NCBI GenBank assembly: GCA_020073585.1
Contig: JAIQEV010000002.1
Coordinates: 62,001-126,000 of the forward strand
Length of the DNA stretch: 64,000 nt
Direction of reading: 5' to 3'
Source: Terriglobia bacterium
Lineage (GTDB): Bacteria; Acidobacteriota; Terriglobia; Acidiferrales; UBA7541
The position numbers were made by a program, and so were the translations under genes. Positions 44,508 through 64,000 of this stretch are shown in pieces (the first letter of the stretch is position 1; each line of letters opens with the position of its first letter). The notes below the pieces were generated by a model that was not told the origin of the DNA, did no database searches, and saw only the letters and a list, made by a program, of their open reading frames with translations.

Positions 44508-47174
44508 TCAGACTGTCGAATCCTGTAGCCGACACTCCGCCAAGCGGATAATACGCGCTCCCGAACTAAGGTAATCGCGTTCGTGGCAAGTTAGCACAAT
44601 TACCTGAAGGTTCGTGGCCGCTTTGGCCAGAATCAGGAGCATGTTCTGAAAGCGCTCCTCGTCTGCGTACACGATGGCGTCATCGAGAATGACGGCGGCT
44701 GGCTGGCCCTTTTCGCGCAGAAGGTCGGCGAACGCGAGCCGCGCTAGCACCGCCAACTGCTCCCGCGTGCCCAAGCTTAAATCCTGGAAAGATTCCAGCA
44801 CTGCTCCCCGCCGCAGACCGGTGATTTCGATGTTTTCGTCAAGCACGAGTTCCGCTTCGGGCAGCAGCATCCGGAGGTAGGGCTCAACGCGTTTGGTAAC
44901 CGGACTCAAGAAAGTCTCCTTCGCCTCTTTCTCCGCCTGCGTCAGCACCTGATGGAGGAGTTTGATGGCCCTCGCTTCGCGTTCCAGACGCTCCGATTCC
45001 CTGTTCGCGACGTCAAGCTTTGCCGCTAGTTCCTCCTCTCTCTCTCCGAGCCCGATCTGCCCAAGAGTGCGGAGTTCCGTCTGGAGGTCCCGGATTCCCT
45101 GGTTTGCAGTATCCTGGTCGCGCTCGATCTCCATCACAGCCTTTCCCGCCTGCTGAAGACGCAGTTGGGTCTTCTCTGGCTGCGCATCCTCCCATTCCTG
45201 CTCCAACCTTCGGGCCACAATCCGCGCAGATTCTTCCTTGGTAATGGCCGCCTCATATTCCTTTTCTAGAACCTCGTCCGCTTTCTTCCTCCGATTGCTG
45301 TCCAATTGCTCTTTAGCCTGGGTGAAATGTTCCTGGGATTGCTTCAGCTCACCTTCCAATCTGGAGGTCTTCTGCTGAACCTCGGCAAGTTGAGCGCGTA
45401 CTTCTGCCTCCTGAGCCGCAACCACACGGAACTCCTTCTGTTCTTTTTCCCGGGTGGAGCGGAGATCTTCCAACCTGTTCTCGGCGTCCGATACGGGAGG
45501 CAAATGCTTCCTCTGTTCAGCCGAAAGATCTTTGAGGATGGCTTCTTGGAGGCTGAGTTCCGCTTCAAGCGCCTCAAGTCCATCGGGTGCATGAACGGAA
45601 ACAAGTCCCGCCTGCGTTTCTGCTTCACCGAGCAGCCTCTTTCTTTCTTCGACTTGTCCCTCACCCTCAGCCAGATTTTTCACCCCATACCGGCTGAGAG
45701 TATCCCCTAGTTTTTGCGCAGTCTTCCGCTGTGCGTCACGAAGCTGGTCAAGATCGCCGCCGGGCGTTACCGTAATCTGACAGACATCCTTGATTTCGAT
45801 TTCAGCGACATCCGTAATCCGCCGGGATGCTTCAGCAGGGAGTTTCACTCCGTCGAGGGTCGCGGTTTTCCCGGAACGTGTGATTATCTTAAGGCCGGTC
45901 GCAACTCCCTCAAGCATGACGCGAGCGTCCTCCGCTTCTTTGTCGAGCTTTTTCATTCCTGCAAGAGCTCGGGCGTCGAGCAAGATTGCTTTGGCCTGGG
46001 CCCCAAAATCCTTTTCCTTTTCATTCGCGCGGCGGGCCTTGCCAAGGCGCTCTTTCAGTTCGCCGATCACTGCTTTTGCTCGCGCATGACGTACTTCCTG
46101 CTCGACACGCACGAGTTGTGCCTGCACCTTGGATAGCGTAGTTTCTGCTTCGTTCCTGGCACTGGTGAAGCGTGCCAAATTCGATTCGAGTTCGGAGATG
46201 GTCGGTCGAAGCTCGGTGAGCTGCTCCGTGAATGACTTGACCGCAGACGTTGCTGACTCGATGCCTTGAATTTCCTCCTTCCGCTTCTTCCAGGCAACCG
46301 ATGCAGTCTCGCATTCGGCCTGAGCCACCCTTTGATCCGCCAAGCATTTATTGCGCTCCTTCTCAAGTTGCTCGATCTTCCGGCTGACCTCCTGGGCGCT
46401 CGCGAGGGCTTCCCGTGCCTTTTCGAGAATCTTTTCTGATTTGTATTTGGAGAGACGGTCCAGCTTGGCCTGGAGGTCTCCCACTTTGCCCTCATAGGAG
46501 ACCAGCCTATTTCTTACATCCGTCAGTTCGGATTCGAGGGGCTCTTTTTCCTTGATGGCTCTCGCATAGTCGCCCGTCGGCTTACCGCCAGTCGTAAATG
46601 TCTTCTCGTATTGCCGGGTAATAGAGGCCAGGATCTTCGACCCTCGTTTTCCGCCGAGGACATCGCCCACTTCGCTTTCGAGAGTCGCCCTTATCGCACT
46701 CCGGCTGTCGTCATTGGGGTCCAGCGCTCTGAAGGAGCGTCCCTGTTCGACCCAGAAGAGTCCCCAAATCCCCCGGTGCCTGTCGTCACCGCCGCCCCTT
46801 CCGGGTGGCTTGAACTTCAGCAGTTCTTGAAGTTTTTCCTCTACTACAGGCCCGCTCCAGTTTCCATCGGGTCCGGAGAGTTCCGCCTCGGGATGCTGGC
46901 AAAACGCTTTAGAAAGACGGTAGTTCTTTCCGTGCAGCTCGAACGACAGCTTGATGACGGGCCGGACAGAGGAATTGTAAGGAAGAAGGGCTGTTGCCAC
47001 GTCGCCGGTGATATTGTGGCGGACAAAAAGAACGGTTCGGAGGGCATCGAGAAGCGTGGACTTTCCCTCTTCGTTGTCTCCCACGATGACCGTGAGACCC
47101 GGGTCGATCTCATTGATCGCAACCGGTTTCATAAACTTTCGGAAATTACGCACCTCGATGGACTTGACGATCAT
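44508..47174 (-). CDS. SbcC/Rad50-like ATPase
   Basis: 888 residues. N-terminal Walker A GDNEEGKST (32-40), long coiled-coil arms (about 200-400 and 520-690) with a small beta-rich insert between them (TATLDGVKLPAEASRRITDV), and the C-terminal ABC signature LSLGTREQLAVLARLAF with Walker B VILDDAIVY. No CxxC zinc hook is present, so the arms may be joined by the insert instead. It is coupled to the SbcD-like gene by ATGA and works with it as a nuclease complex. Both differ from housekeeping SbcCD and sit in a cluster with proteases, suggesting an immune function. Confidence 0.88.
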   Translation of the reverse strand: MIVKSIEVRNFRKFMKPVAINEIDPGLTVIVGDNEEGKSTLLDALRTVLFVRHNITGDVATALLPYNSSVRPVIKLSFELHGKNYRLSKAFCQHPEAELSGPDGNWSGPVVEEKLQELLKFKPPGRGGGDDRHRGIWGLFWVEQGRSFRALDPNDDSRSAIRATLESEVGDVLGGKRGSKILASITRQYEKTFTTGGKPTGDYARAIKEKEPLESELTDVRNRLVSYEGKVGDLQAKLDRLSKYKSEKILEKAREALASAQEVSRKIEQLEKERNKCLADQRVAQAECETASVAWKKRKEEIQGIESATSAVKSFTEQLTELRPTISELESNLARFTSARNEAETTLSKVQAQLVRVEQEVRHARAKAVIGELKERLGKARRANEKEKDFGAQAKAILLDARALAGMKKLDKEAEDARVMLEGVATGLKIITRSGKTATLDGVKLPAEASRRITDVAEIEIKDVCQITVTPGGDLDQLRDAQRKTAQKLGDTLSRYGVKNLAEGEGQVEERKRLLGEAETQAGLVSVHAPDGLEALEAELSLQEAILKDLSAEQRKHLPPVSDAENRLEDLRSTREKEQKEFRVVAAQEAEVRAQLAEVQQKTSRLEGELKQSQEHFTQAKEQLDSNRRKKADEVLEKEYEAAITKEESARIVARRLEQEWEDAQPEKTQLRLQQAGKAVMEIERDQDTANQGIRDLQTELRTLGQIGLGEREEELAAKLDVANRESERLEREARAIKLLHQVLTQAEKEAKETFLSPVTKRVEPYLRMLLPEAELVLDENIEITGLRRGAVLESFQDLSLGTREQLAVLARLAFADLLREKGQPAAVILDDAIVYADEERFQNMLLILAKAATNLQVIVLTCHERDYLSSGARIIRLAECRLQDSTV

Positions 47175-48307
47175 TGCTTCCCCTCTCCCGACACGTGCTC
47201 GAAGTAGATGCGGCGCAGGGCATCCTCTGCGTACGCGCGTTCCGGGTGGGTCGAATCCTTCTGAATTGTTCGCAGGCGCTCGACAGCGGTACGGACAAAT
47301 CCGGATAGATCGATCCGGTCAAAATCGTCTTCGGTCGGCTCCGTGAGAAGATTCTCGTCGGAAACGGAAAGGTAATGGAATTTAGCGACCCATTCAGCAA
47401 GAAGTTCATCGAGGTCGCCGCGGCTCGCGAGATCCAATACTCCCGAGAGACGGAGTTGGACAATTTGCCGATCCGACGGCTCCGGCAGCGCGGTAAACTC
47501 CCTCGTCAGATGCGAAATGGCCCCGGTCCCATGAAGAGAGATCTCGATCCTATGCCAGAAAAAATGGCCCACCGAAATCTTCTCAACGTGCGGAAGTGCG
47601 CCGGGAGCGTCCAATGTCACCAGGAGGACGTTCCCCGTGTCGTTTTCTTTGAAGCTATCGGGCTCCGGAGTGCCAGCATACCAAGTGCGATCGTTTACTC
47701 GGAAGGTCCCGTGCCAATCTCCGAGCGCGAGATAGTCGAGCTTCGCCAACGCAGCCCGGTCGGGAGCAATAGGATTCTTGGCATCCCATTCCCCAGGTAG
47801 AATGTTTTGAACGGACCCGTGCGCCAGTCCAACCCTGATTACGCCATTGGGCGTTTCCATGCTCCCAAAGGACTCCGTCAGATCTATCACTTCTTGCTTG
47901 CGATGGAGCGGAGCTGGCAGCACGACCAGATTCTTGCCGGGGATAAAAATGGGCTCTTCCGAAGTCGCCGCAACAATGTTATCGGGGATTCCAATGCGCT
48001 CCAGGCGTGTCCAAGCAGACTCAGCAGCAGCCGGGTCATGATTTCCTGGCAACAGAATCCACTTCCCATCCTTGAAGTGGCGCATCGCTTGGAGAGTCCT
48101 TCGAAGTGTTTCGTCGGAGAGAGTATTGTTCTCAAACACGTCACCTGCAACAACGACAACATCAACACGGCGCTCCATGGCAAGTTTCGCGATATTTTCC
48201 ATCGTCTTCAGGCGCTGGGTTCGGACGCCAGCACCGGCATCTTGGGTGATGAATCCGAACTGCTTCCCGATCTGCCAGTCGGCGGCATGAAGTATCTTGA
48301 TGGCCAT
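47171..48307 (-). CDS. SbcD/Mre11-like metallophosphoesterase nuclease
   Basis: 378 residues. Phosphoesterase motifs in order: HAADWQIGK (Asp10, with Gln12 where many relatives have His), VVVAGDVFE, LLPGNHDP, VGLAHGS, and GDWHGTF. A dimanganese DNA nuclease of the Mre11 type is expected. The C-terminal capping region is acidic. It overlaps the Rad50-like partner. The S41 gene lies 59 bp upstream, on the same strand. Confidence 0.88.
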   Translation of the reverse strand: MAIKILHAADWQIGKQFGFITQDAGAGVRTQRLKTMENIAKLAMERRVDVVVVAGDVFENNTLSDETLRRTLQAMRHFKDGKWILLPGNHDPAAAESAWTRLERIGIPDNIVAATSEEPIFIPGKNLVVLPAPLHRKQEVIDLTESFGSMETPNGVIRVGLAHGSVQNILPGEWDAKNPIAPDRAALAKLDYLALGDWHGTFRVNDRTWYAGTPEPDSFKENDTGNVLLVTLDAPGALPHVEKISVGHFFWHRIEISLHGTGAISHLTREFTALPEPSDRQIVQLRLSGVLDLASRGDLDELLAEWVAKFHYLSVSDENLLTEPTEDDFDRIDLSGFVRTAVERLRTIQKDSTHPERAYAEDALRRIYFEHVSGEGKQ

Positions 48308-48366: not shown

Positions 48367-49599
48367 TTACATATGCTTGGCAAACTCTAATGCTCTCTGT
48401 ATTTGAACATCCTGACCGGCGATTAGGTCGTGGGGCGATAGTTCAACGGGGATGCTCGGCGATACGCCTTTACCCTCGATCAATCTTCCCTGCCATGTGA
48501 GGTACGCAGCCACAGGCAAACCCAGGATGTACCCTTCGCCTACTCTAAATGTAGTTCCGCTGAGCAACCGGCCAGGCGTTTTCTTGCCGACAATGGTTGC
48601 GAGCTGATTCTCCTCCGCAAATGCGGCAACCATTTCGCCGGCACTGGCGGTGTGTTCGTTCACGAGTATAACCACGCGGCCGTGGAATCGTTGCGGGCCG
48701 AGCCCTTCCGTGACGACGAGAATCGACTTGTCAATGAAGCCGTAGCGGAGCGCCAGCCAGAAAAGAGTGGCCTTATGCGAAGGTATGCGGCCAAATCTCG
48801 GCAACTCTTCTCTTTTATATCCCTTCTCTTTTCGCGCGCGGGTGAGGCTATAGCCGACTTCCTTTTTTCCGGGTGTCAGATAGCTCATCAGCCGCAAGCC
48901 ACCGATGCCGCCTCCGGTGTTTCCGCGAAGGTCCACAATCAGCCGGGTCAAATCTTTCAAGTGAGCGAAGGCTGCGTCGAGCATTTTGGCAAGGTCGATC
49001 CCAACGGCTCCGGGAAACATGGTCACCTTGAGCCAACCAATCCCGTCGGGTAGCTGTGAGCACAGAACTGCTTTGGGAACGATCACGGGGTGACTCTTCG
49101 ACTTTGGAGAGGGGACGTTCAAGGTGCCCATGATTCGCTTACCGTCCGGCTTCTGGACCGCATATTGGGAGTCCTCCCATACAGGGAAGATCGGCGGGTC
49201 GGGCGGCCTGAGTTCTTGATTTCGAACCTGGAGAAGGATATCGCCTGGGCGCAAGCCCGCGACGTGCGCCGGGCCTCCTTCGTGAACGTCCTGGAACATC
49301 CATCGCTCTTCGCCGTCGAGGGTACAGCGCATGAACGTGGCGCAGATCGCATGGCGGCCCGGAACATTCGGGCTCTTGGAGTGGCGGAACCCTGTATGGC
49401 TGGTCTTCAGTTGGTTCAGCAGGTCTTGCATCTGCTTTTCGAACTCTTCGTCACTGCCGCTTCGCAGGATTTGGTCCTTTCTGGCCGCGGACAACTCCTC
49501 CCAATTCGCCCCATTCATTGCCGGATCGAAATGCTTCCGTGCAACGAGATCGCACACGCGGGAATAAATCTTTTCGCGGGTTTGCGTGTCGAGACTCAT
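48367..49599 (-). CDS. S41-family (C-terminal processing) peptidase with PDZ domain
   Basis: 410 residues from ATG 49599. A helical N-terminal domain (YSRVCDLVARKHFDPAM), a PDZ domain (VHEGGPAHVAGLRPGDILLQV) and the S41 catalytic domain: LIVDLRGNTGGGIGGLRLMS, then NEHTASAGEMV with nucleophile Ser319, and VGKKTPGRLLSGTTF. There is no signal peptide, so it probably acts inside the cell, unlike most tail-specific proteases. It is coupled by ATGA to the CHAT gene. Candidate effector or activator in the four-gene cluster. Confidence 0.87.
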   Translation of the reverse strand: MSLDTQTREKIYSRVCDLVARKHFDPAMNGANWEELSAARKDQILRSGSDEEFEKQMQDLLNQLKTSHTGFRHSKSPNVPGRHAICATFMRCTLDGEERWMFQDVHEGGPAHVAGLRPGDILLQVRNQELRPPDPPIFPVWEDSQYAVQKPDGKRIMGTLNVPSPKSKSHPVIVPKAVLCSQLPDGIGWLKVTMFPGAVGIDLAKMLDAAFAHLKDLTRLIVDLRGNTGGGIGGLRLMSYLTPGKKEVGYSLTRARKEKGYKREELPRFGRIPSHKATLFWLALRYGFIDKSILVVTEGLGPQRFHGRVVILVNEHTASAGEMVAAFAEENQLATIVGKKTPGRLLSGTTFRVGEGYILGLPVAAYLTWQGRLIEGKGVSPSIPVELSPHDLIAGQDVQIQRALEFAKHM

Positions 49600-52328
49600 T
49601 GGACTCCCAAAGGGATCGGAGACCCTCCGTCTCCGGCCAGAACAAACGCTCCCCAATAGTAGGGTGGAACCTGTTTACCGTATTTTGCGAGTAAGTCAAG
49701 TTTGGCGTGCCGCAATGCCCCGGCCTTGTCCTGGCCCTCCGCGATGTGGGTGTAGAACCGCTCCATCAGAGCGAGCGTGTACGTATCGTCGGCACTCCAG
49801 AGGCTGGCGACGACCGCCTTCGCGCCGCTGACCAGGAATGCCTCGACCAGACTCGTAACGCCCTCTTCTCCTTGCAGCTTGCCAACCCCCGTATTGCAGG
49901 CCGAGAGCGTCACCAGATGGGCATTAAAGCGCAGGCGAATGATCTCCCGGATCTGCAATAAGCCGTCGTCGTGGGAAGCCGGGTCCAGTCCTAGTACCAA
50001 GCCCGACCGTTCCGGAAACTGAGTGTCCGCGAAGCCGTGGGCGGCAAGATGAACAATCTTGAAATCCGCCAAAGGCTCGGATTTGAAAGCGGTTTCGGTC
50101 GCGCTTGGACCGAGCAGGAGAACGGAGTCCTTGCCGACAATCTTGCTGACCGTGAGGATCTCCTCGCGGGTCTGCGGCAAGTCATACAGAGTTGCGCCAA
50201 ACATGTCTGAGAAACCGCGCTCAAGCCTTTGTTCAACTCCACTTGGCTTATCGAGTTTCGCGGAGACATGGCCCTGATTCTGGTAGGGCACATCCCCTAC
50301 ACCCAAGAATGTCTGCCGCGGAAGCTGCGTGTCCTTGGCGGTCCTCAGAACAGTCAGGACTGTAGACGCTGGCACGTAGCTTATGGTGCGGGTCTCCAGC
50401 AGGAAGGCGCCTGTCGAATCGCGGAGAGTATCGAATGGCAGAAGATTCAGAATTCCGTCTGGTACGACGATCAGGCGTTCGCGGTTTGCTTCCGTGGGCA
50501 GGGAGCCCAAAAGGACACCGTAGAGTTGTTTCGCCAGGTCAATGTCATCGTGCTTGGCCCGCATTTCCGCCAAGTATTCGCGTGTTAGCTCTTCAATTCG
50601 CTGGCGTCCGGCAGGCAGCGTTTGTATACCCGCGTGCTTCTGGGAAATCCAAACGCAATGTGCGCGCGGCTCGCTGAGCACGTATTCCAGCACAACCTCG
50701 TCAGGCCGCAGGCTTGCCTGGATTTCCTTCAGAGGCGCTGGCTTCTCAAACCATCCGGGCCTCGATTCTTTCCCATTCGTTCTCGTCCATTCCAGCCGGC
50801 GCTCGTACTCAACCAGTTGATCGAGCAAACCTGCTCGCTCCTGTTCGCTCTCCGAGCGCATCAATCGAAGTTGTAGGTCGGAGACTTCGTCTTCGAGTGC
50901 TCGCACACTTTCAGATTCGTTCTTGTTGAACCTAACTTTGTTTTCCAGAAGAACCGCCGCCGTGCGCCCTCGCACTCGTTCCAGTACGTTAAGTGCCCGC
51001 TCGACATTTCCTTGCCGTGCCTCCAGTTCGAAGTGGCGAAGGTACGTGTCGCTCATCGCCCCAGCGAGCGAACTGCCCCAATACGCCTCATGCAAGTTCA
51101 CGAGCATCCCGTCAATGACATCCTCGGCGTTCTGATAGAGTGCTTCGGCCTCAGAGGAAGATCCTCGCAGGGTTTTGAGGTCCGCCAAAATCGTCAGATC
51201 CCGTGGCAGGTAATACCTGTCTCCGACGCGCCTGCTGGCATCAACGCCCACGGCAGCACGTTCCTCGGCAGATTTCAGGTCCCCTGCATCGCGATACAGG
51301 CCTGCGAGATCGATCATTGCCTGCCCCACAGTGCGATAGAATTTGTATTTCCGCGAGATGTCAGCCGCCTGCTCAAGGTGCTTTATTGCCCCTGAGCGAT
51401 CTCCCGTTTGCAACGCTAGTTCGCCGAGGGAGAGAAGAATCATGGCTTCATGGCCACGCTTTTGATTTGCTCGGGCCATCGTCAAAGCCTGCTCCAACTT
51501 GTCCTCCGCTTCCGACACCTTGCCCTGAGCTACCAGCGCCTGTGACTCACCTTCATACGCCATGAACGGAAACCCCGCATCGGGATTGGCGCTGCTTGTC
51601 TTTATGGCTCGCTCGAAAAACGCGAGGGCCTCACCATATCGCTTCGCTTCATTGAAGCCATTGCCAAGCATTTCCAGGAGTCGAACTTGGCCGCCCACAT
51701 CGCCACTCGCCTTGGCAGACAAGAATGCGTCGCCAACCATTGTCGCGGCTCGTCGGCTATCCCCCTCCAGAAAAGCGATGATTCCGAGTTCTCCTTTTGC
51801 CCGTGCTTCCCAATCCACTTCTCCCAAATCGCGCGCAATTGTTTGAGCTTCCGTCCAGGCTCTCTTCGCCGAAGCTGGATTGATCTCCAGGTCCGTGTAT
51901 CCCTTTGCCGCTAGGCACCAAAGCCGCAATTGCGGGTCACTCTTCACAACCGGGATCTCTAGCTGCTTCCCGAGCATCTCGGATACATCAACCCAAGACA
52001 TGGTCTCCGACTCCGCGCGAATTCTGCCGACGCGGGCATAGATTTCATTCCGCGTGTCGCCTCTCTCCCGGAAAAGCTCCTCTGCGCGAGCGTAGAGAGG
52101 TCCGGCTTTGGGCCAATTGAAAAGCCACGCGAGACGGTTCGCTTCCGCAAGCAGCATTTCGGGATTCTTGGACGCTTCAACATCATGCAATAGATCGGCG
52201 ACTGGCGGCCTCGGGTCAGGCCTTCGTGATACGTACAACCAAATGTACTTTCGCGCAATTACGGCTGCGGCGACAAGAATGATAAGAACCAAAAGGAGAG
52301 CAACTCGCCAGCGTTTGGAAATATGCAT
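49596..52328 (-). CDS. Membrane-anchored TPR-CHAT protease
   Basis: 910 residues from ATG 52328 (a TTG 18 codons upstream is possible). One N-terminal membrane helix (about 8-28), a long array of tetratricopeptide-like helices (about 60-440), a coiled-coil linker, and a C-terminal CHAT protease of clan CD: LPFDTLRD, VHLAAHGF with His764, LSACNTGVG with Cys811, and SGAKAVVASLWSADD. Known bacterial TPR-CHAT proteins are activated by bound partners and cut other proteins; here the partner could be the adjoining S41 peptidase or SbcCD-like nuclease. First gene of the minus-strand cluster. Confidence 0.9.
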   Translation of the reverse strand: MHISKRWRVALLLVLIILVAAAVIARKYIWLYVSRRPDPRPPVADLLHDVEASKNPEMLLAEANRLAWLFNWPKAGPLYARAEELFRERGDTRNEIYARVGRIRAESETMSWVDVSEMLGKQLEIPVVKSDPQLRLWCLAAKGYTDLEINPASAKRAWTEAQTIARDLGEVDWEARAKGELGIIAFLEGDSRRAATMVGDAFLSAKASGDVGGQVRLLEMLGNGFNEAKRYGEALAFFERAIKTSSANPDAGFPFMAYEGESQALVAQGKVSEAEDKLEQALTMARANQKRGHEAMILLSLGELALQTGDRSGAIKHLEQAADISRKYKFYRTVGQAMIDLAGLYRDAGDLKSAEERAAVGVDASRRVGDRYYLPRDLTILADLKTLRGSSSEAEALYQNAEDVIDGMLVNLHEAYWGSSLAGAMSDTYLRHFELEARQGNVERALNVLERVRGRTAAVLLENKVRFNKNESESVRALEDEVSDLQLRLMRSESEQERAGLLDQLVEYERRLEWTRTNGKESRPGWFEKPAPLKEIQASLRPDEVVLEYVLSEPRAHCVWISQKHAGIQTLPAGRQRIEELTREYLAEMRAKHDDIDLAKQLYGVLLGSLPTEANRERLIVVPDGILNLLPFDTLRDSTGAFLLETRTISYVPASTVLTVLRTAKDTQLPRQTFLGVGDVPYQNQGHVSAKLDKPSGVEQRLERGFSDMFGATLYDLPQTREEILTVSKIVGKDSVLLLGPSATETAFKSEPLADFKIVHLAAHGFADTQFPERSGLVLGLDPASHDDGLLQIREIIRLRFNAHLVTLSACNTGVGKLQGEEGVTSLVEAFLVSGAKAVVASLWSADDTYTLALMERFYTHIAEGQDKAGALRHAKLDLLAKYGKQVPPYYWGAFVLAGDGGSPIPLGVQ

Positions 52329-52711
52329 AGGAACGCCTGCGCCCTGCCTTCTTCTTCGCGGAAGATTCGCACTAAATGTCAAAGCCCGGAGATGGCCGGC
52401 AGTTGCCTCTGCGGGTACTTGCTGCTTGCGGTTATGAGTCTAGGACAGATTGAGACTGACCAACAGAACAAAAAATAACGCGTTGACCCATTCTTTGAGA
52501 CCTGGCAGTTAAACGGAACCACTTGCGGAATCCGGTTTCATGGCACCAGACTGCTGGACCGGAACAGCTCCCATGTGTGCCATCATCCGCCAGGAACTAA
52601 CATTCGCCTATTCGACCCCGTCCCGCGCTGGCGCTGAAAATTGAATTGGGTGTAATGTGTACTTGGTACATTTCAGATTGTCCGCCAATCGGAACGAGGG
52701 AGCGCAGGGCG
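52329..52711. other. Divergent intergenic region between the CHAT and PHP-SMC operons
   Basis: No gene is seen. It carries a 22-base segment (52575-52596) repeated at 13270-13291 with one mismatch, and the palindrome TGTAC-TTG-GTACA (52658-52670) that could be an operator for the rightward operon. Confidence 0.5.
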
Positions 52712-52909
52712 ATGAGCGAGTGGGACATGCGCATTCGCGAGCACCGCGTCTGGGACGAGATGCGGTCGCTCGGGCCAGTGATTGACAGTGCAGCCGGCAT
52801 TGAGGAGATCGAGCCAGAAGCGTTCGCCGGGCTGGAGCGGATTCAAGCGATCCTGGCATTCTGTGGCAAGCGACTCGCGGCTGCGGAACCGTGGAGAAAA
52901 GCAGTATGA
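52712..52909 (+). CDS. Small helical protein preceding the PHP-SMC ATPase
   Basis: 65 residues from ATG 52712 (MSEWDMRIREHRVWDEMRSL), amphipathic and helical, overlapping the next start by ATGA. No domain recognised. The tight coupling suggests a partner or antitoxin-like subunit of the ATPase. Confidence 0.6.
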   Translation: MSEWDMRIREHRVWDEMRSLGPVIDSAAGIEEIEPEAFAGLERIQAILAFCGKRLAAAEPWRKAV

Positions 52910-55791
52910 ATGATCCGAGGGGTTCACTGTGGCGCAGGTGGGACCTGCATTTCCACACGCCAAGTTCCTTCGACTATGAGCACCCTGGCATCAACGACAA
53001 CCAGATCGTGGATTCTTTATTGGAATCCGGAATCGCAGCTATCGCAATAACAGACCACCACGTTATTGATATTCAACGAATTCGAAATCTGCAAGCGATC
53101 GGAAACGGCAGGCTTACCGTCTTTCCGGGCATCGAACTTCGCAGCGACCAAGGTGGCGAGCCGATCCACTACATCGCCATTTTTCCTGAAGACTGTGACC
53201 TTGATCATGTGTGGACGACACTCCAGGGCCGTCTCGGCCTGACTCCCACTGCCATCAAGGAAAAGGGTGGAGATAACGCGGTCTATGTGCCTATAGAAGA
53301 CGGTGCCAATGTCACCCGCGAGTTGGGCGGTATCGTGTCGATCCATGCCGGTGCGAAGAGCAACTCCATTGAAGGAATCAGCAACCGAGAGCAATTCCAA
53401 CAGCGAATCAAGTACGACATAACCAGCAAATATGTTGATCTCATGGAAATCGGCCAGCTTCGTGATATTGACCGGCACCTAAAGATAATCTTCGCGGATA
53501 CGGGTTTGGACAAACCTCTTGTCCTTTGTTCGGACAACCATGACGCCAGCAAGTACACCGTCAAAGCGCCTTTGTGGCTACGTGCCGACCCAACTTTTCG
53601 CGGTTTATTGATGGTCCTCAAGGAGCCACGGGACCGGATATTCATCGGCGACCGTCCACCGGAACTCATCCGTGTCCAGCAAAATCCAACCAAATACATC
53701 CGCAGCATTTCCTTTACACGCAAAGGTAGTGCTCCCGCGACGGAGCGGTGGTTTAGCGGGAGTATCCCGTTCAACACCAGCTTAGTTGCCATCATCGGAA
53801 ACAAGGGAAGCGGCAAAAGCGCGCTTTCGGATACGCTTGGGCTTCTCGGCGCCACGAAAAACGCTGGTGCCTTTTCCTTTTTGAGTGCAGAGCGATTTCG
53901 CCATCCCAATCCCTGCCTCGCTGAGCACTTCGACGCCACGATTGAGTGGATGGCGGGAGATACAAGCACGAAATGTTTGGCAGACTTGATCAAACCGGAA
54001 GAACTTGAGCGACTGAAGTACCTCCCCCAAAACCACGTCGAGACCGTGTGCAATGAATTGGCCAGGCCCGGAGCCGAATCCTTCGAACAGGAACTTAAAG
54101 CCGTCATATTTTCACATGTTCCCGACACTGAGCGATTGGGCCAAACCGCGCTCGATGAACTCGTTCGATTCCGCACAGGCGAGAAGCAGAAACGCATCGA
54201 CTCCCTGCTGAAGCTGCTCCGTGAATCCAGCAGATCACGGGGGTTATTGGAGGCTCAAGCCGATCCGGTCGTCAGACAGAAGTTGACCGAGGAAATTAAC
54301 CGCCGGAACCTCGAGCTTGAAGCTCATGAGAAGAACAAACCAGCCGAAGTGGACAACCCGGCGGCCCGCGATGAGGGCACGACGCCGGATTCAACTCTCC
54401 TCGCGGAGATAGGGACCGCCGAAGCAGAACGAAAGAGATTGACAGATGAAATCGCTACCGCGACCGGGAAACTTGGCGCTGCCCAACGTCGGCAGGCGGT
54501 TGCGCACCGGGTACTTGAAAAACTGACCAACTTTGAGAAAGACTTCGAAGCGTTCCGAACATCGCTGGAGGAGGATGCCACAGAGCTAGGATTACGTGCC
54601 GATGAATTGGTGACACTGACCGTCGCAAATTCGAAACCGACAGAGATCCGGGACCAATCGCAAAACGAAATCGCCGGTACGAATGAGGCTCTTGACGCTG
54701 TCGATCCGCCCGGCTTGCGTCGGCGGCTTGCCTCCATAGAAGCGAGAATCAGTGAGCTTCAATCTAAGCTCGATGCACCGAACCGTGCTTACCAGGCGTA
54801 CCTAGGCGCCCTGGCAGAGTGGCAGGTCAAACGGGAGTCAATTGAAGGCACCGAGGAAGAGCCTGAATCTCTGAATGGCCTCAAGAGCCGCTTGGCCGCC
54901 TTAGACCAGCTTCCAAGCAAGATCGCCAAGGCCATGGACGACCAAGCGGAGCTAGCTCTCCAGATTCACAGCGAGAAGCTCTCCCAAGCGGCCGTCTACC
55001 GCGAACTCTACGGTCCCGTGCAGAATTTCATTAATTCCCATCCACTGGCAAGGAACAAACTCAGACTGGAATTCCGCGCGGAATTGACAAATGAAGATTT
55101 TGCTGCCCGTTTTCTTGAGTTGCTCGCACTCAACCGGAAGGGAAGCTTCATGGGTATCGACGAAGGGCGAGCCAAGGTCGAGGTGCTCACGCAGCCGGTT
55201 GATTGGGAGAGCCGAGACGCGATCCGGCGATTCCTCACGGCTGTAGATACCGCACTTCACGTCGATGAACGGCCCGGACAAGGGGGCGACGTGCAACTCA
55301 AAGACCAGCTCCCGAAGGGGAGGAAACCGGAGGAAGTCTTTAACCTCCTCTACGGTCTGGAGTATATCCGCCCCCGCTACGTCTTGCGCTGGGAGGGCAA
55401 GGAGCTCTCAATGCTTTCGCCAGGCGAGCGTGGCACACTCCTCCTCGTCTTTTACTTGCTCATCGAAAAAGGCGACATGCCGCTCATTATCGACCAGCCT
55501 GAGGGAAACCTAGACAACTTTACAGTGGCCAAGGTGCTTATAGAATGTATCAAAGAGACTCGGAAGCGACGGCAGGTCCTCATCGTAACTCACAATCCTA
55601 ATCTTGCGGTTGTAAGCGACGCCGATCAAGTAATCTACGCGAGCATGGACAAGGCGAATGGCAACGCAATCAGCTACGAAACCGGGGCGCTAGAAAACCA
55701 GGCCATGGGCCGGTACGTCACGGACGTTCTTGAAGGTACACGCTGGGCGTTCGGCGTCCGCGACGCGAAATACAGCGTTACAGATGAATGA
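52906..55791 (+). CDS. PHP-domain/SMC-type ATPase (TrlF-like)
   Basis: 961 residues from ATG 52906. The N-terminus is a PHP phosphoesterase: WDLHFHTPSS (His15, His17), ITDHHV, FPGIEL, VSIHAG, LCSDNHD. The rest is an SMC/RecN-like ATPase: Walker A GNKGSGKS (298-305), long coiled-coil arms (about 420-660), and the C-terminal LSPGERGTLLLVFYLLIEKG signature with Walker B LIIDQPEGNLDN and the switch VTHNP. This is the architecture of TrlF-like proteins found in defence and tRNA-linked loci. ATP binding probably controls nucleic-acid or nucleotide hydrolysis by the PHP part. Confidence 0.88.
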   Translation: MNDPRGSLWRRWDLHFHTPSSFDYEHPGINDNQIVDSLLESGIAAIAITDHHVIDIQRIRNLQAIGNGRLTVFPGIELRSDQGGEPIHYIAIFPEDCDLDHVWTTLQGRLGLTPTAIKEKGGDNAVYVPIEDGANVTRELGGIVSIHAGAKSNSIEGISNREQFQQRIKYDITSKYVDLMEIGQLRDIDRHLKIIFADTGLDKPLVLCSDNHDASKYTVKAPLWLRADPTFRGLLMVLKEPRDRIFIGDRPPELIRVQQNPTKYIRSISFTRKGSAPATERWFSGSIPFNTSLVAIIGNKGSGKSALSDTLGLLGATKNAGAFSFLSAERFRHPNPCLAEHFDATIEWMAGDTSTKCLADLIKPEELERLKYLPQNHVETVCNELARPGAESFEQELKAVIFSHVPDTERLGQTALDELVRFRTGEKQKRIDSLLKLLRESSRSRGLLEAQADPVVRQKLTEEINRRNLELEAHEKNKPAEVDNPAARDEGTTPDSTLLAEIGTAEAERKRLTDEIATATGKLGAAQRRQAVAHRVLEKLTNFEKDFEAFRTSLEEDATELGLRADELVTLTVANSKPTEIRDQSQNEIAGTNEALDAVDPPGLRRRLASIEARISELQSKLDAPNRAYQAYLGALAEWQVKRESIEGTEEEPESLNGLKSRLAALDQLPSKIAKAMDDQAELALQIHSEKLSQAAVYRELYGPVQNFINSHPLARNKLRLEFRAELTNEDFAARFLELLALNRKGSFMGIDEGRAKVEVLTQPVDWESRDAIRRFLTAVDTALHVDERPGQGGDVQLKDQLPKGRKPEEVFNLLYGLEYIRPRYVLRWEGKELSMLSPGERGTLLLVFYLLIEKGDMPLIIDQPEGNLDNFTVAKVLIECIKETRKRRQVLIVTHNPNLAVVSDADQVIYASMDKANGNAISYETGALENQAMGRYVTDVLEGTRWAFGVRDAKYSVTDE

Positions 55792-55882
55792 GGCGAGGCG
55801 TATTGCTCGGGCAGCTCTCTTTATGCGGGACGAGCTGGCGCGGGCTTGAGTACAATTCAGGGGAATCCGTCAAGGGGGGAAA

Positions 55883-56023
55883 ATGGCAGATGGACTGGAG
55901 ATCGGCCCGGACAAGATTCTTTTTCAGGATGACTACATTACGGTAAGAATCGCACGTTTTGATCCGCAATCCGCGTGCGGACAGCGCTGGTGTCCGCAAC
56001 CAAGAACGCGTACCCTCGATTAA
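55883..56023 (+). CDS. Small ORF before the caspase-like gene
   Basis: 46 residues from ATG 55883 with a strong AAGGGGGG site (MADGLEIGPDKILFQDDY). It ends 16 bases before the caspase-like gene. No family recognised. It may be a small subunit, a leader peptide, or the start of a once longer gene. Confidence 0.4.
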   Translation: MADGLEIGPDKILFQDDYITVRIARFDPQSACGQRWCPQPRTRTLD

Positions 56024-56039
56024 GCATGAATCCAAACTC

Positions 56040-56672
56040 ATGCCCAACAAAACGACCAATGCACCGATTCTCCTACTTCAGTGGCTAGACACGGCGGAGT
56101 ACAAGGAGACCAAATCTGCTTTGAGAGCATTCGGCAGAAAGGTGAAAATCCTGCATGCCGATGTTAGAACTAAGCTGGAAGCCATCGCGGCAATCGAGAG
56201 ATGGCTCCAAGGCAATCCAAACGCACAGTTTCTATTTATTGGCACACACGGAGATGAGGACGGTCTTGGCCCAACCGTGCAGAATGGAATTCATTGGTCC
56301 GAGTTGTGGTCCGTACTGAAGAAGGCCGTCAGACCAGTTGCCCTCTGGCTCGGCGCGTGCAATTCGGCATGTGCAGCAAAAGCTTGGTCGCCCGTCCAAG
56401 GACATGCCCCAGTTGACTACATCGTGGGGTTTCCAGTTGCGATCAAGGCCGACGAGATCGAGAAAGTACTCCACGAACTGCTCAAAATGACGGGCATAGA
56501 CCCTGTAACTTTCGTTGATGAGGAAATCCCGAAACTTCGGAGGGCTCTTCCCAAAACCACTGTCGTGATGCACTACAAAGCGCCCACGAAGGCGGGGCCG
56601 GTGGAGTATGTTGACAACGATGACTTCCCAGACCGTGTCGGCATGAAGCTGAGAGAGTACTTGCAGAAATGA
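56040..56672 (+). CDS. Small caspase-like (clan CD) cysteine protease
   Basis: 210 residues from ATG 56040. The core follows the caspase-fold order: strand NAPILLLQW, FLFIGTHGDEDG with His70, then ALWLGACNSA with Cys107, giving the His-Cys dyad of clan CD. A helical and beta C-terminal region follows (DYIVGFPVAIKADEIEKVLHELL). It is a stand-alone catalytic domain with no sensor, so a partner must supply recognition; the PHP-SMC ATPase immediately upstream is the likely one. Specificity is unknown. Confidence 0.72.
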   Translation: MPNKTTNAPILLLQWLDTAEYKETKSALRAFGRKVKILHADVRTKLEAIAAIERWLQGNPNAQFLFIGTHGDEDGLGPTVQNGIHWSELWSVLKKAVRPVALWLGACNSACAAKAWSPVQGHAPVDYIVGFPVAIKADEIEKVLHELLKMTGIDPVTFVDEEIPKLRRALPKTTVVMHYKAPTKAGPVEYVDNDDFPDRVGMKLREYLQK

Positions 56673-56725
56673 ATCTGAGCCCTTCACTTGACCGTCTAAG
56701 ACTTTCCGTGCACTGACAAATAACT

Positions 56726-56760
56726 GAAAAAAGGCTCCGGTAACACCAGAGCCTTTTTTC
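56726..56760. terminator. Bidirectional terminator between the caspase-like gene and ssb
   Basis: A perfect 12-bp inverted repeat (GAAAAAAGGCTC with GAGCCTTTTTTC) with an 11-nt loop, having an A-tract on one side and a T-tract on the other, at the meeting point of convergent genes. Confidence 0.85.
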
Positions 56761-56770
56761 CAAGAGCTGG

Positions 56771-57184
56771 TCAGAACGGCACCTCCTCCGGCTGCGCGTC
56801 GACCGGCGCGTTGTCCGGCACCTGCTCTTTCCGAGCGCGGTTGAGCTTGCGGATGGAATCCGCCTTCACCTGCCAAGCCTTGAACGGCACGGTGATCTTG
56901 CTCTTGCCTTTGCCGAACTCCTTCTCGAAGGTGCTGCTCACCAGCGTGCCCTCGACGTAGATGTGGTCGCCTTTCCGCAGCTTCGTCGCGGCGTACTCGC
57001 CGAGGCCGTTCCAGGCAACGACGCGATGCCACTCCGTCTTGGAGTGCCATTCTTCGTCGGCGCCCTTCCAGGACCGCTGAGTCGCCAGCGAAAGAACCGC
57101 GTATTTGCGGTCTGTCGCCTTGACGGACTTGTGCTCCGGGTTTTTGCCGAGATAACCGATCAGATGAACTACGTTGATATGCAT
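56771..57184 (-). CDS. ssb: Single-stranded DNA-binding protein
   Basis: 137 residues from ATG 57184 (GGAGAAAC upstream); longer frames are spurious. The OB-fold pattern is clear: MHINVVHLIGYLGKNPEHK, YAVLSLATQRSWKG, TEWHRVVAWNGLGEYAATKLRKGDHIYVEG. The tail lacks the full DDDIPF but ends EEVPF, the usual acidic tip that recruits partners. Its location near ArdC points to an element-borne copy used to protect transferred DNA. The leader contains two hairpins. Confidence 0.95.
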   Translation of the reverse strand: MHINVVHLIGYLGKNPEHKSVKATDRKYAVLSLATQRSWKGADEEWHSKTEWHRVVAWNGLGEYAATKLRKGDHIYVEGTLVSSTFEKEFGKGKSKITVPFKAWQVKADSIRKLNRARKEQVPDNAPVDAQPEEVPF

Positions 57185-57731
57185 GATGTTTCTCCGTTTC
57201 TGCCCTTGGTATTGGGGCACCCCGAAGCGAGTGGATACTGCTCCCAAAGCGAGCGGCTGCTTTTTGGGAGGGACACAAGAAATCTTCGGCGCTGTTTCAG
57301 AAGATTTGTTGGGAGGAACCGGAAAAGCAGAAGCCGCGAAGTGCGGTGTGTGCATCCCGGACCCTTCCGGGACTGCGGGCGCAGGAATTATCCCGAAGCC
57401 GTGCCCAATGGAGAGGGTAGGAACGGAGACAATGCATCGAAACGGGTTCAACCGGTGCTTTCGAGGACCGGAGCCACAGGACAAAAGGGAGACAGACCGC
57501 GCGGGCTTTCCTGCCGATCGCGATCATGGTGCCGCGAAGAATCACTCGATGATGGCACTCGCTCGATGTAAGCCGCGGCGAAGAATGCGGAATCCCACTC
57601 TCGTCGAAGGCTGGTGAGACCAAGAGAAGCTACGGCAAAGGTGGACATAAAGGAGCAAGTTGAGTGCTCTATCGTGCCCGGACATGAGTGGAACTTGCAT
57701 CGTTTGGGTTAGCATTGCAGAGAGCGCGACT
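57185..57731. other. Structured leader region upstream of ssb
   Basis: Longer frames here are shadows. Two inverted repeats stand out: CTCCCAAA/TTTGGGAG (57241-57248 and 57263-57270) and AAATCTTC/GAAGATTT (57280-57287 and 57300-57307); CCCGGA/TCCGGG is near 57357. They lie 55-125 bp before the ssb start. Confidence 0.5.
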
Positions 57732-60353: not shown

Positions 60354-61239
60354 CCCTACCGTGAATCTGACTGCGGACGACATAGCGTGGGTTAAAGCTC
60401 ATGCTGCGGAAGTGACGCAAACGTTCGGGGCCGAGTTCGCTGCCGCGAGGGACCGATTCAAGGAAGGTCAGCTATTGCTCAACCGTTTCAATACGGCAAT
60501 CGAATCGGTTCTGAAAAACGGCAGAGGGCATTTCAGCCCCGTTGACGAAGCCCACAACGAGATCTGTATCGCAAGCGCGCTGCTTGCCAATACGCGACTG
60601 CGATTCATCCGCCTGGAGTACGAGCCTCCCCTGCCCGGCTGCGCCAAAACCATTGATTTCCGTGCGACGGCAGATAACGGACAGATCGTATATGTTGATG
60701 TGAAAACGATAAAGTCGCAGGCTGCCGATAGATGGGATCAGTTCGAGAAGGCAACGAAGGAGGGTTGGATCGCCGACAACGTGCATGTGGTCATTTCCCA
60801 AGATTGGCTCGGAGGGGAAATCTGGCATGCGTGGTTTGCAGCGAGAGCCAGGATGCTGGAATACACGCTCGAACTCGAGCAAAAGATTGCCGAGGGCAAC
60901 CTAGCCGGGGAAAATACGCCGTTCGTGCTGGCGCTGTGCGGCGATGGGTTCGGCTGGCAGCAGGACGGGCTGGAGGACTTCGTCAGCTTCTATTACAGCG
61001 GCATCCACCGCGCGGACGACGCATTTTCCAAAGTCGAGTTGAGGTACATATCGGACAAGAAGATAACGATCAATCGGACGATTTCGCAGTTCGCATACAT
61101 GAAGCGCCCGCAGAGTCAGATACGACCGATCCGGCTCAATTGGAACGTCAGACCGCCACGCGATTCTTTTTTTAAGCGCCATCCAAGTTTTCCGCCGCTC
61201 AGATGTAGTGGCCGAAAGGCAGTGGAGGAACGTCCTTGA
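60346..61239 (+). CDS. Second PD-(D/E)XK-type nuclease candidate of the pair
   Basis: 297 residues from ATG 60346; a longer frame to 60256 overlaps the first gene. KTIDFRAT (Asp104) and IVYVDVKTI (Asp118-x-Lys120) give a D..DxK core, preceded by a helix with Glu (DEAHNEICIAS). The C-terminus runs 41 bases into the convergent Argonaute gene. Together with the first gene it may form a two-component nuclease. No match to a named defence system is apparent to me. Confidence 0.62.
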   Translation: MRSPTVNLTADDIAWVKAHAAEVTQTFGAEFAAARDRFKEGQLLLNRFNTAIESVLKNGRGHFSPVDEAHNEICIASALLANTRLRFIRLEYEPPLPGCAKTIDFRATADNGQIVYVDVKTIKSQAADRWDQFEKATKEGWIADNVHVVISQDWLGGEIWHAWFAARARMLEYTLELEQKIAEGNLAGENTPFVLALCGDGFGWQQDGLEDFVSFYYSGIHRADDAFSKVELRYISDKKITINRTISQFAYMKRPQSQIRPIRLNWNVRPPRDSFFKRHPSFPPLRCSGRKAVEERP

Positions 61240-62710
61240 TGGGACCGGCTGTCAGTATCTCTCCTACAGCATCCGCGAATTTCAGCGTGATCGGCATCCC
61301 GTCGCCAAAAATGCAGGTGTTGTAATTGAGTTTGGTGAGGGCAAGAATGTCCTTCAGCACCACGTTGATGTCCGCGTCACCTTTATTAATGTCGATGATC
61401 AGGGGATTGGGAACTTCCCGCCCTGGGTAGGTTTGAATGCGCGGCGTCCAGCCGCGCGTCCAGAGATGGGCGCTACGCTCGCCCCGGATGTTTGCCAGTC
61501 CGCGCAGCACGGGATTCTGGCCTTTGCGGTAGAGCTTCAGGTTTTTCTCTTCCCGGATGCGGACGCCGACCATGCTCGTTGCAGTACCGGCCGCATCGCT
61601 GAATCCCTGCCATTCGTTAGGCTCAAAACGCACTTTGCCGTGGATGAACATTTCCTTGGGCGGCCCGCCCGCTTTCCTGGTGTAGGACTTGATTGCCAGC
61701 TCCCCCAGCGCCTTGGCCGCCGCATAGCTCAAATGAAAATCGCCGGTCTCGTCGTTGTACCAGGGACCGAGCGCTCCCTTGAAGACCACTCCGTCGCCGG
61801 AGTCGAGAAACATCTGCGCCGCGCAGCAGGCATTCTTGGAGGTTCCGGTGGTCTCATCCTTCTTAAACACCAGGCCGACATAGCACACGCCGTCGCGGAT
61901 ATCCGCCACTTTCCATGGTCGCCCTCCCACCTTGTAGAAGATGGCGGTGCAAAGATTCCAGGCGATCTCCGATTGGCGCGCTGCGGCGCGCGCGTCAAAG
62001 TCGCTGTCGCTGGGCTTGCGGATATTGGAAAGCGTGCTCTCCTTGACGATTTGCGTCAGCACCATGTCATCCAGAAGTCTGGCCTTGAGCTGATTGTGGA
62101 ACTGCTCCTCGTAGACGTAGGGTTCCGCCTCGCGGTCCATCTCCGGGAACAGGGAACGTGTTTCATAGAAGGTCTTCGCCTGCTTTGCCTGCTTGAAGGC
62201 TCTCAGGGCCTGCTGCCGAACCTCGGGCTCGACAACGGAATTGGGGCGGCAATACTTCCACACCCGGTCAGGAACCACGACAAACCACAGCTCGGGCTTC
62301 TCCGTCTCCTCGCGTATCGCCTCAAGAATGCGCTTTGCAAACACGCTCACGGTTCCGTACACGCGCAGGTGCGGCTCGTCGAGATAGAGATGTTCGTCAA
62401 TCTCGGCGTCCGTTACCGTGAGCGTGAGCAGGGGTTTGGTATTCCAGCGCGAGCGGAACACGGTCTCAAAGCCGGGAAACGGCGGACGCCCGAGCAGCGG
62501 TGTTGCGTTGAAGACAGGGCGCTGTACCCATTCCACCCAGCGCTCAAAGCACTTGATGCCGGTTTCCGTGCCGATCACGCCCGCCTTGATTCCATACGGT
62601 TTGCTTTCGTCGAGGGGTCCGAACAGGGTCAGGCCATCGCGCGGATCCTCCATCGCCTGACCGTGCCTGAAGAGCAGACGCGGCTCCGGAATGTAAATGA
62701 GGTCTTTCAT
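61199..62710 (-). CDS. Short prokaryotic Argonaute (MID-PIWI), SPARTA-type
   Basis: 503 residues, the size of short pAgos that have only MID and PIWI domains. MID-like start: KPYGIKAGVIGT and PPFPGFE. PIWI-like part: WNLCTAIFYKVGGRPWKVADIRDGVCYVGLVF, where the first catalytic Asp is replaced, and the family-typical end TLKFADAVGEILTAGP. Catalytically dead PIWI is expected, used as a guide-directed sensor. It overlaps the TIR-APAZ gene by ATGA (62707-62710). SPARTA systems of this kind deplete NAD after sensing invader nucleic acid. Confidence 0.87.
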   Translation of the reverse strand: MKDLIYIPEPRLLFRHGQAMEDPRDGLTLFGPLDESKPYGIKAGVIGTETGIKCFERWVEWVQRPVFNATPLLGRPPFPGFETVFRSRWNTKPLLTLTVTDAEIDEHLYLDEPHLRVYGTVSVFAKRILEAIREETEKPELWFVVVPDRVWKYCRPNSVVEPEVRQQALRAFKQAKQAKTFYETRSLFPEMDREAEPYVYEEQFHNQLKARLLDDMVLTQIVKESTLSNIRKPSDSDFDARAAARQSEIAWNLCTAIFYKVGGRPWKVADIRDGVCYVGLVFKKDETTGTSKNACCAAQMFLDSGDGVVFKGALGPWYNDETGDFHLSYAAAKALGELAIKSYTRKAGGPPKEMFIHGKVRFEPNEWQGFSDAAGTATSMVGVRIREEKNLKLYRKGQNPVLRGLANIRGERSAHLWTRGWTPRIQTYPGREVPNPLIIDINKGDADINVVLKDILALTKLNYNTCIFGDGMPITLKFADAVGEILTAGPIKDVPPLPFGHYI

Positions 62711-64000
62711 TGCTCCCCGCCTTCCGGTGCGCCGTCCTCAAAAGCGTCGTCGTCGCGGGAGTCCCGCCCGTAGTCATCGGCGGTTTCGTCATCCTCCGAG
62801 AATCGCAGTAGCTGCGGATCGGTGTAGGACACCGGGCTGCAGAACGGCAATGGAGTCGGTGGGATCGACAGGCTGGCCTTGCTTCCGAGCTTCACCGTGA
62901 TTTTATCCGCGCCGTCGCACAGATACGTGGCGGCGGCAAGCGTGCGGTCGCGCCATTCGTCATTCCACCAGGATTTGCACTGGCTGCGCCGGGCGGAGGC
63001 CAGCTTTTTCTTGCTCTCCCAGATGGTGGTGCCGTCGTTCGTAAACAGGACATGCGATTTGAATATGTAGGCAAGCATGGGATGGACAAGCGGCCGTGCC
63101 TGCACTGCATAGTGCCAGAGCCGCTTGACGCTCACTCCGGTCGTGGGGTTTGTCCTGGTGCTGTATCCGACCATCGCGCGGTAGGTTCTCTCGCCGTCCA
63201 CGCCCGTGAAGAAAACCTTGTCATTGGGCACGCGGTCTTTGGGGAAGTAGAAGCATTTGACCTTGTTCGCCAGCTCATACACCGGCAGCTTGCGCTCGGC
63301 GAGCATCTGCTCCCAGGCAACGCGCAGAAGCTGAAACAAATGTTTCCCGAAGGTGGATTTGGGTTCCGCCAGCAGGCCCGCCACTTCGAGCGGATCGCCC
63401 GCCTTGGTAATGTACATTTCCGGGCCGAGTTTTCCGTCGAAGTCCGAGGCTTCGGCGAAGGTGATCAGAAACATCCCGTCCTGCACTGCCGGGTATGGAA
63501 GCGTGGGAGCTACTTCCAGTACGCCGATGCTTTTTCGCGAGAGCGAGTGGAAATAAATATGTGTGGGCAGCGTAATCGGAAACCAGTTGGAGAGGTACTC
63601 CTCGGGCTCCTTACGCAATCCCTGCTCGGCGCTGAACTGCGTGCGCCACCACTCGTTGACTGCCGTCCGGTTGAATTTCGGGTCCTTGGGAACTTTGTCT
63701 TCTTCGAGTTTTTCTAGCAGCTTGGCAAGCCCAGCACCCCAGGATGGCGCGCACGGGACGGTATTGATCCGGGTGATTTCGATGGTGGTATCACCGTGCG
63801 GCAAATCGTCGATGTGCAGCGGGATGACGAAGTCCTTCAGTTTTTCCTTTTTGGCTACGCCTTGCGCGAAATGCAGCTCCTTGAGCGGGCCGTCCTTGGC
63901 ATTCGATGTCCGGGAGAGAACGTAGAGCACCTTGACCGCGCGGGTTTTGATCACCTCTTCGATATCGTCCCAGAACACCTCGCCGCCAAGAAGCTTCGTA
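62707..64000 (-). CDS. TIR-APAZ protein of the SPARTA system, 5' end off the window
   Basis: At least 431 codons are in view; the frame is open to the right edge, so the N-terminus is missing. The visible N-terminal part is a TIR domain (VKVLYVLSRTSNAKDGPLKELHFAQG) in which the Glu of KELHFA is the likely NADase catalytic residue. The following APAZ-like region (WFPITLPTHIYFHSLSRKSIG; YEIFKSHV-type strand LAYIFKSHVLF) binds the short Argonaute. The acidic C-terminus is DDDAFEDGAPEGGEQ. Coupled to the pAgo gene. A GTG at 63978 exists but would delete part of the TIR fold, so the true start lies beyond the edge. Confidence 0.85.
   Translation of the reverse strand, partial: TKLLGGEVFWDDIEEVIKTRAVKVLYVLSRTSNAKDGPLKELHFAQGVAKKEKLKDFVIPLHIDDLPHGDTTIEITRINTVPCAPSWGAGLAKLLEKLEEDKVPKDPKFNRTAVNEWWRTQFSAEQGLRKEPEEYLSNWFPITLPTHIYFHSLSRKSIGVLEVAPTLPYPAVQDGMFLITFAEASDFDGKLGPEMYITKAGDPLEVAGLLAEPKSTFGKHLFQLLRVAWEQMLAERKLPVYELANKVKCFYFPKDRVPNDKVFFTGVDGERTYRAMVGYSTRTNPTTGVSVKRLWHYAVQARPLVHPMLAYIFKSHVLFTNDGTTIWESKKKLASARRSQCKSWWNDEWRDRTLAAATYLCDGADKITVKLGSKASLSIPPTPLPFCSPVSYTDPQLLRFSEDDETADDYGRDSRDDDAFEDGAPEGGEQ

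Follow-up and report, generated by a model that had tools for sequence, protein, structure and literature searches.

A TrlF-family PHP/SMC-type ATPase and a divergent DUF6642-like clan CD protease share a cargo slot in a putative acidobacterial defence island

The window analysed here, a stretch of 64,000 nucleotides from a Terriglobia bacterium of the phylum Acidobacteriota (assembly GCA_020073585.1, contig JAIQEV010000002.1, positions 62,001 to 126,000), carries four open reading frames (ORFs) on its plus strand between positions 52712 and 56672. In order, these are a gene for a protein of 65 amino acids (aa), a gene for a 961-aa TrlF-family protein that joins a PHP domain to an ABC/SMC-type ATPase, a 46-aa ORF, and a gene for a 210-aa protein related to caspase-like proteases. 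The explanation that we favour, at a probability of roughly 60%, is that TrlF is a self-sufficient nuclease/ATPase resembling the anti-phage protein Ppl, and that the protease is a separate effector travelling with it in one cargo load, within an island of defence genes on an integrative conjugative element. According to this explanation TrlF would act alone, with its ABC/SMC-type ATPase clamping or sensing DNA (either ends or non-host structures) and then allowing the PHP domain to break down invading DNA, by analogy with Ppl and possibly with the assistance of the 65-aa protein. The 210-aa protease would be co-mobilized and would serve as a defence or abortive-infection effector in its own right, responding to a trigger other than TrlF.

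The 961-aa protein (52906..55791, plus strand) is, judged by its profile score and motifs, a clear full-length member of the known TrlF family. It reaches 586.9 bits against the NCBIfam model NF045780, for which the cut-off is 350, and the match covers residues 5-956. Reading of the sequence finds the motifs of the N-terminal PHP phosphoesterase domain intact (HFHT, TDHH, PGIE, IHAG and SDNH), as are those of the ABC/SMC-type ATPase with its coiled coil (GNKGSGKS, LSPGER, LIIDQPEGNLD and THNP), and the ABC motifs are invariant across an alignment of seven TrlF proteins. The 65-aa gene (52712..52909, plus strand) is joined to the TrlF gene by an ATGA overlap at 52906-52909, in which the stop codon of the first overlaps the start codon of the second. 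Translationally coupled to TrlF in this manner, the 65-aa protein probably acts as a small accessory protein or a regulator. It has no family match in library scans. A homologue that is 52% identical over 42 aa occurs as an apparently broken ORF in another genome (G440; L105:5840-6178), in which no TrlF match was found.

The arrangement can be compared with the trlRFG temperature-restriction locus of Photorhabdus (PMC7554251), where trlF likewise encodes a full-length PHP protein with an ABC/SMC ATPase and is directly preceded by a small gene. However, the trlG gene (Alba_2/HATPase) of that operon does not adjoin TrlF in the present locus, where the 46-aa ORF, the protease gene and a gene for single-strand binding protein (ssb) lie downstream instead. 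A second comparison is with Ppl, a single-gene anti-phage defence whose product is reported to be a PHP 3′-5′ exonuclease that needs 3′-OH ends and depletion of nucleoside triphosphates (PMC12904381). Both proteins have a PHP domain and a related C-terminal ABC ATPase. Because TrlF has this domain plan and part of its ATPase in common with Ppl, an autonomous DNA-sensing nuclease appears to be the likeliest function for it. Nevertheless, TrlF scores 126.7 bits against the Ppl model NF042955, where the cut-off is 1000, and hence on profile comparison it is a relative of Ppl and not a member of that family.

Codon usage distinguishes the two smaller genes from the ORF between TrlF and the protease. 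The 210-aa ORF (56040..56672, plus strand) has log-odds of +0.145 per codon, with the five other frames ranging from -0.004 to -0.435 and each containing stops, and the 65-aa ORF gives a similar value (+0.177 per codon). The 46-aa ORF (55883..56023, plus strand) has no coding signal in these statistics (-0.022 per codon) and no family match, and its coding status is doubtful; a purine-rich run resembling a ribosome-binding site lies upstream of it. The initial annotation, made from the sequence alone, placed all four ORFs correctly and recognized the coupling of a 65-residue gene to a TrlF-like PHP/SMC protein. It also had a 46-residue ORF and a protease following on the same strand, which holds for the positions and the strand but finds no backing from codon usage for the shorter of the two.

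The 210-aa protein has no match in Pfam, NCBIfam, PADLOC, PHROGs or PDB sequences, and no homologue was detected in 396 genomes of the phylum, 399 genomes of the class or the 61 closest relatives. A weak match in one class genome (G722) has an E-value of 0.004 and spans 71 aa. Plasmids, phages and viral contigs likewise yielded no homologue in three scans made with the 210-aa protein or with its alignment, and neither did genome contigs. After its pattern was seen to resemble that of DUF6642 (PF20347), a family of unknown function, we collected DUF6642 proteins from ten related genomes and compared the two by hhalign. The resulting score was 42.8 over 81 columns at 28% identity, with the HG and C motifs included, whereas 200 shuffled queries reached 22.2 at most. 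When 74 pieces of window proteins were used as decoys, only those from CHAT domains rose above noise. With a larger set of DUF6642 rows the score fell to 34.2, which is still well above that of the shuffles (22.4). The Pfam models themselves, both that of DUF6642 (gathering cut-off 27 bits) and that of CHAT (PF12770), gave no match to the protein at E ≤10.

Nine alignment columns are invariant between the 210-aa protein and DUF6642, including His70, Gly71, Gly105 and Cys107. The histidine and then the cysteine are found in the expected motifs at the ends of adjacent beta-strands, which is the order of clan CD. Proteins of both groups are about 200 aa long, with the same order of strands and the same invariant HG and C motifs, but the C-terminal region of the 210-aa protein diverges and no link between DUF6642 and TrlF is known. 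By this alignment the protein is a new, very divergent stand-alone relative of DUF6642, to which it would be a sister. In the literature on TrlF and DUF6642 we found no functional study beyond that in Photorhabdus.

Structure prediction leads to a similar view. A single-sequence AlphaFold model was unusable, with a predicted local distance difference test score (pLDDT) of 41, and was discarded. A model built with the DUF6642 rows reached a pLDDT of 63 and a predicted template modelling score (pTM) of 0.62. This model matches the SAVED-CHAT structure 8tl0 with a Z-score of 11.6 (162 residues, root-mean-square deviation 3.4 Å), caspases with Z-scores of about 10, and the TPR-CHAT component of Craspase (7y85; PMC10028731) with a Z-score of 9.7. 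Because DUF6642 rows were used for the model, the fold match speaks more for the whole family than for the 210-aa query by itself, and it is partly tied to the profile match. The independent evidence for clan CD is therefore the profile match with its shuffle and decoy controls. Taken on its predicted fold and dyad, the 210-aa protein is a member of clan CD, and it would be expected to have proteolytic activity. The profile match, the invariant dyad columns and the predicted fold all bear out its initial description as a stand-alone clan CD protease with His70 and Cys107. Although the predicted fold and the His/Cys dyad are held in common with SAVED-CHAT and Craspase, the 210-aa protein stands alone, with no sensor domain (SAVED, TPR or CARD) and no match to Pfam CHAT. 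The uncharacterised DUF6642 family and this very rare relative of it are now tied to the caspase/CHAT fold.

The genomic setting of the four ORFs is informative as well. DNA homology with a sister genome (G429) covers 48452-52558 at 80% identity, then restarts at 56684, twelve bases past the stop codon of the protease gene, and covers 56684-57478 at 86%. Between these stretches lies a cargo segment of about 4.1 kb (52559..56683, plus strand), which contains only the 65-aa gene, TrlF, the 46-aa ORF and the protease gene, all on the same strand. The sister integrative element keeps the backbone of VirB4, S41, TPR-CHAT and ssb at 77-86% DNA identity, but in place of these ORFs its slot between TPR-CHAT and ssb holds a PadR regulator and a MacB-like permease. 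The ssb gene (56771..57187, minus strand) is the conserved right flank of the slot.

This shared slot is what speaks most strongly for a joint cassette, and it has to be weighed against our preferred explanation of a self-sufficient TrlF with a separately acting protease. The slot holds exactly these four ORFs, on one strand, as would be expected of a functional cassette. Two further points also count against the preferred explanation: just one sister element spans both slot edges, and the similarity between TrlF and Ppl is mostly limited to the ATPase ends and falls under the Ppl cut-off.

Because the slot edges rest on one sister element, the genes might also have been inserted stepwise. For example, the 210-aa protein could be a stand-alone protein that regulates or maintains the element, or else a solitary toxin; it would then have come to share the slot by successive insertions and would have no role in defence. 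The single sister element spanning both edges leaves room for such accretion, and the DUF6642 loci that were sampled lack obvious defence genes up to 1.5 kb away. However, the rest of the island abounds in defence genes, and the dyad residues have been kept, which speaks against decay. We regard this explanation as unlikely, but it deserves consideration.

The initial annotation had proposed a different relationship, in which a minimal caspase and a nucleic acid-sensing ATPase make up a sensor-protease module. TrlF would detect invading nucleic acid, and an ATP-driven conformational change would activate the 210-aa protease, which would arrest the cell by cleaving a protein of the host or one associated with TrlF, perhaps the product of the 65-aa gene or of the 46-aa ORF. 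The parts of this module were correctly named. They lie on the same strand in a single cargo slot with nothing else inside, and the protease has an intact dyad and a predicted clan CD fold. Moreover, protease partners of defence ATPases and nucleases are known in principle, as with Craspase and with the nuclease-protease pairs of Canu, Hachiman and AVAST (PMC12799240). In these pairs a nuclease and a protease also travel together, but their proteases are trypsin-like, their nucleases are of the metallo-beta-lactamase type and the pairing is recurrent, whereas the pairing of TrlF with the 210-aa protease has been seen once.

Since the 210-aa protein has no detectable homologue, linkage could not be checked from the protease side, and recurrence was assessed from the side of TrlF. 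The survey comprised 80 named genome loci from many phyla, with flanks of up to 8 kb, and about 42 others. Besides the named loci, it took in 29 loci of the same phylum, the closest relatives and nine annotated plasmid loci. A DUF6642, CHAT or TPR-CHAT gene adjoins TrlF in none of the 80 named loci and in none of the others, and no homologue of the 65-aa protein was found beside TrlF among the loci surveyed. Seen from TrlF, the module does not recur, and the linkage to PHP-SMC genes elsewhere that was anticipated for the protease gene is absent from these loci. TrlF is typically solitary, and plasmids from numerous genera carry it as a lone gene. Its nearest relatives, from an IMG/VR contig (69% identity), a Deltaproteobacterium (65%) and a Spartobacterium (54%), all reside in DrmD-TrlF-Mod-Res restriction operons that have restriction genes in place of a protease. 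The gap of 248 bp between the TrlF and protease genes, with no overlap, also contrasts with the coupling of TrlF to the 65-aa gene. The sensor-protease module keeps some standing because the four ORFs alone fill one 4.1-kb cargo slot, but we find it decidedly doubtful. Still less probable, in our view, is the more specific proposal of a novel defence cassette, made up of the 65-aa protein, TrlF and the DUF6642-like caspase of 210 aa, whose DNA-sensing PHP/SMC ATPase would switch on a minimal stand-alone caspase. A two-protease cascade, in which the 210-aa protease would cooperate around TrlF with a flanking pair of TPR-CHAT and S41 proteases, is very improbable. In its favour, the sole CHAT protein of the genome is only 330 bp away from the 65-aa/TrlF operon; against it, the pair is backbone, conserved at 70-83% in sister genomes whose slot has other cargo or no TrlF.

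The placement of a rare DUF6642 relative beside TrlF in a defence island raises the question of whether a PHP/SMC ATPase makes use of a caspase. If it does, this would be a new route from nucleic acid sensing to proteolysis in bacteria; if it does not, the protease would be one more orphan effector in mobile cargo.

The survey of TrlF loci yielded several other observations. When ORFs in the surroundings of TrlF were scanned for clan CD motifs, all matches were spurious except for an unrelated C14 caspase in one locus (L068); the stricter clan CD pattern recovered 6 of 7 positive controls, and unusual caspases would escape such a scan. In this locus (L068:2782-11755), a PHP-less SMC ATPase gene directly follows type III Mod/Res genes, and the caspase lies 3.1 kb from it, after HATPase, response-regulator and toll/TIR-like genes. 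Operon-like associations of TrlF with a DrmD-type SNF2 helicase, a type III methyltransferase and Res, sometimes with RhuM, were seen in several phyla (L070, L145, L157, L170, L176 and L186), with L170, L176 and L186 carrying the same DrmD-TrlF-Mod-Res gene set as the nearest relatives. The DrmD/Mod/Res set looks like the true recurring partners of TrlF. Two genomes (L050 and L052) have two TrlF-family genes near each other on the same strand.

Taken as a whole, the region resembles a defence island carried by an integrative conjugative element. The window contains a tRNA-Ala gene, an integrase gene and type IV secretion genes, although no second copy of the tRNA-Ala end turned up on the far side, so that the element's exact borders are not set. 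The reading as a defence island is favoured because the element also carries a SPARTA-like pair consisting of a class I short prokaryotic Argonaute (647 bits) and a TIR-APAZ protein (418 bits), encoded on the minus strand at 61199-64000 and continuing about 135 bases past the window (L107:5200-8135). Farther along the same contig, also past the window (L203:4294-12608), are type III Mod and Res genes and, by sequence reading, genes for a DrmD-like helicase and a DUF1016-like protein. Compared with their counterparts around the closest TrlF relative, in L070, the helicase shows 53% identity, Mod 45% and Res 37%, and on this contig TrlF lies apart from the cluster.

Some features around the slot had been missed in the initial annotation, namely the divergent TPR-CHAT and S41 proteases on the other side of the 65-aa/TrlF genes and the fact that the terminator following the 210-aa gene is part of the conserved ssb region. 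The TPR-CHAT protein (49596..52382, minus strand) is a membrane-anchored, protease-like protein of 928 aa that scores 229.5 bits against Pfam CHAT, and its orthologues within the genus are 70-83% conserved. We rejected its nearness to TrlF as meaningful, since synteny identifies TPR-CHAT and S41 as element backbone and not cargo. The PDZ-S41 protease (48367..49656, minus strand; Pfam S41, 98.9 bits) invariably adjoins TPR-CHAT in relatives, and the seven homologous pairs on related elements (48367-52382 here, and L116 and L118-L122) represent a conserved two-protease module. The terminator is an intrinsic-terminator-like hairpin (56726..56760, minus strand) that the 210-aa gene has in common with the convergent ssb gene and that, like the rest of the backbone, is conserved in the sister genome G429. 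A second variable slot at 44508-48307 (minus strand) holds an SbcCD-like nuclease pair, where the sister element has other cargo.

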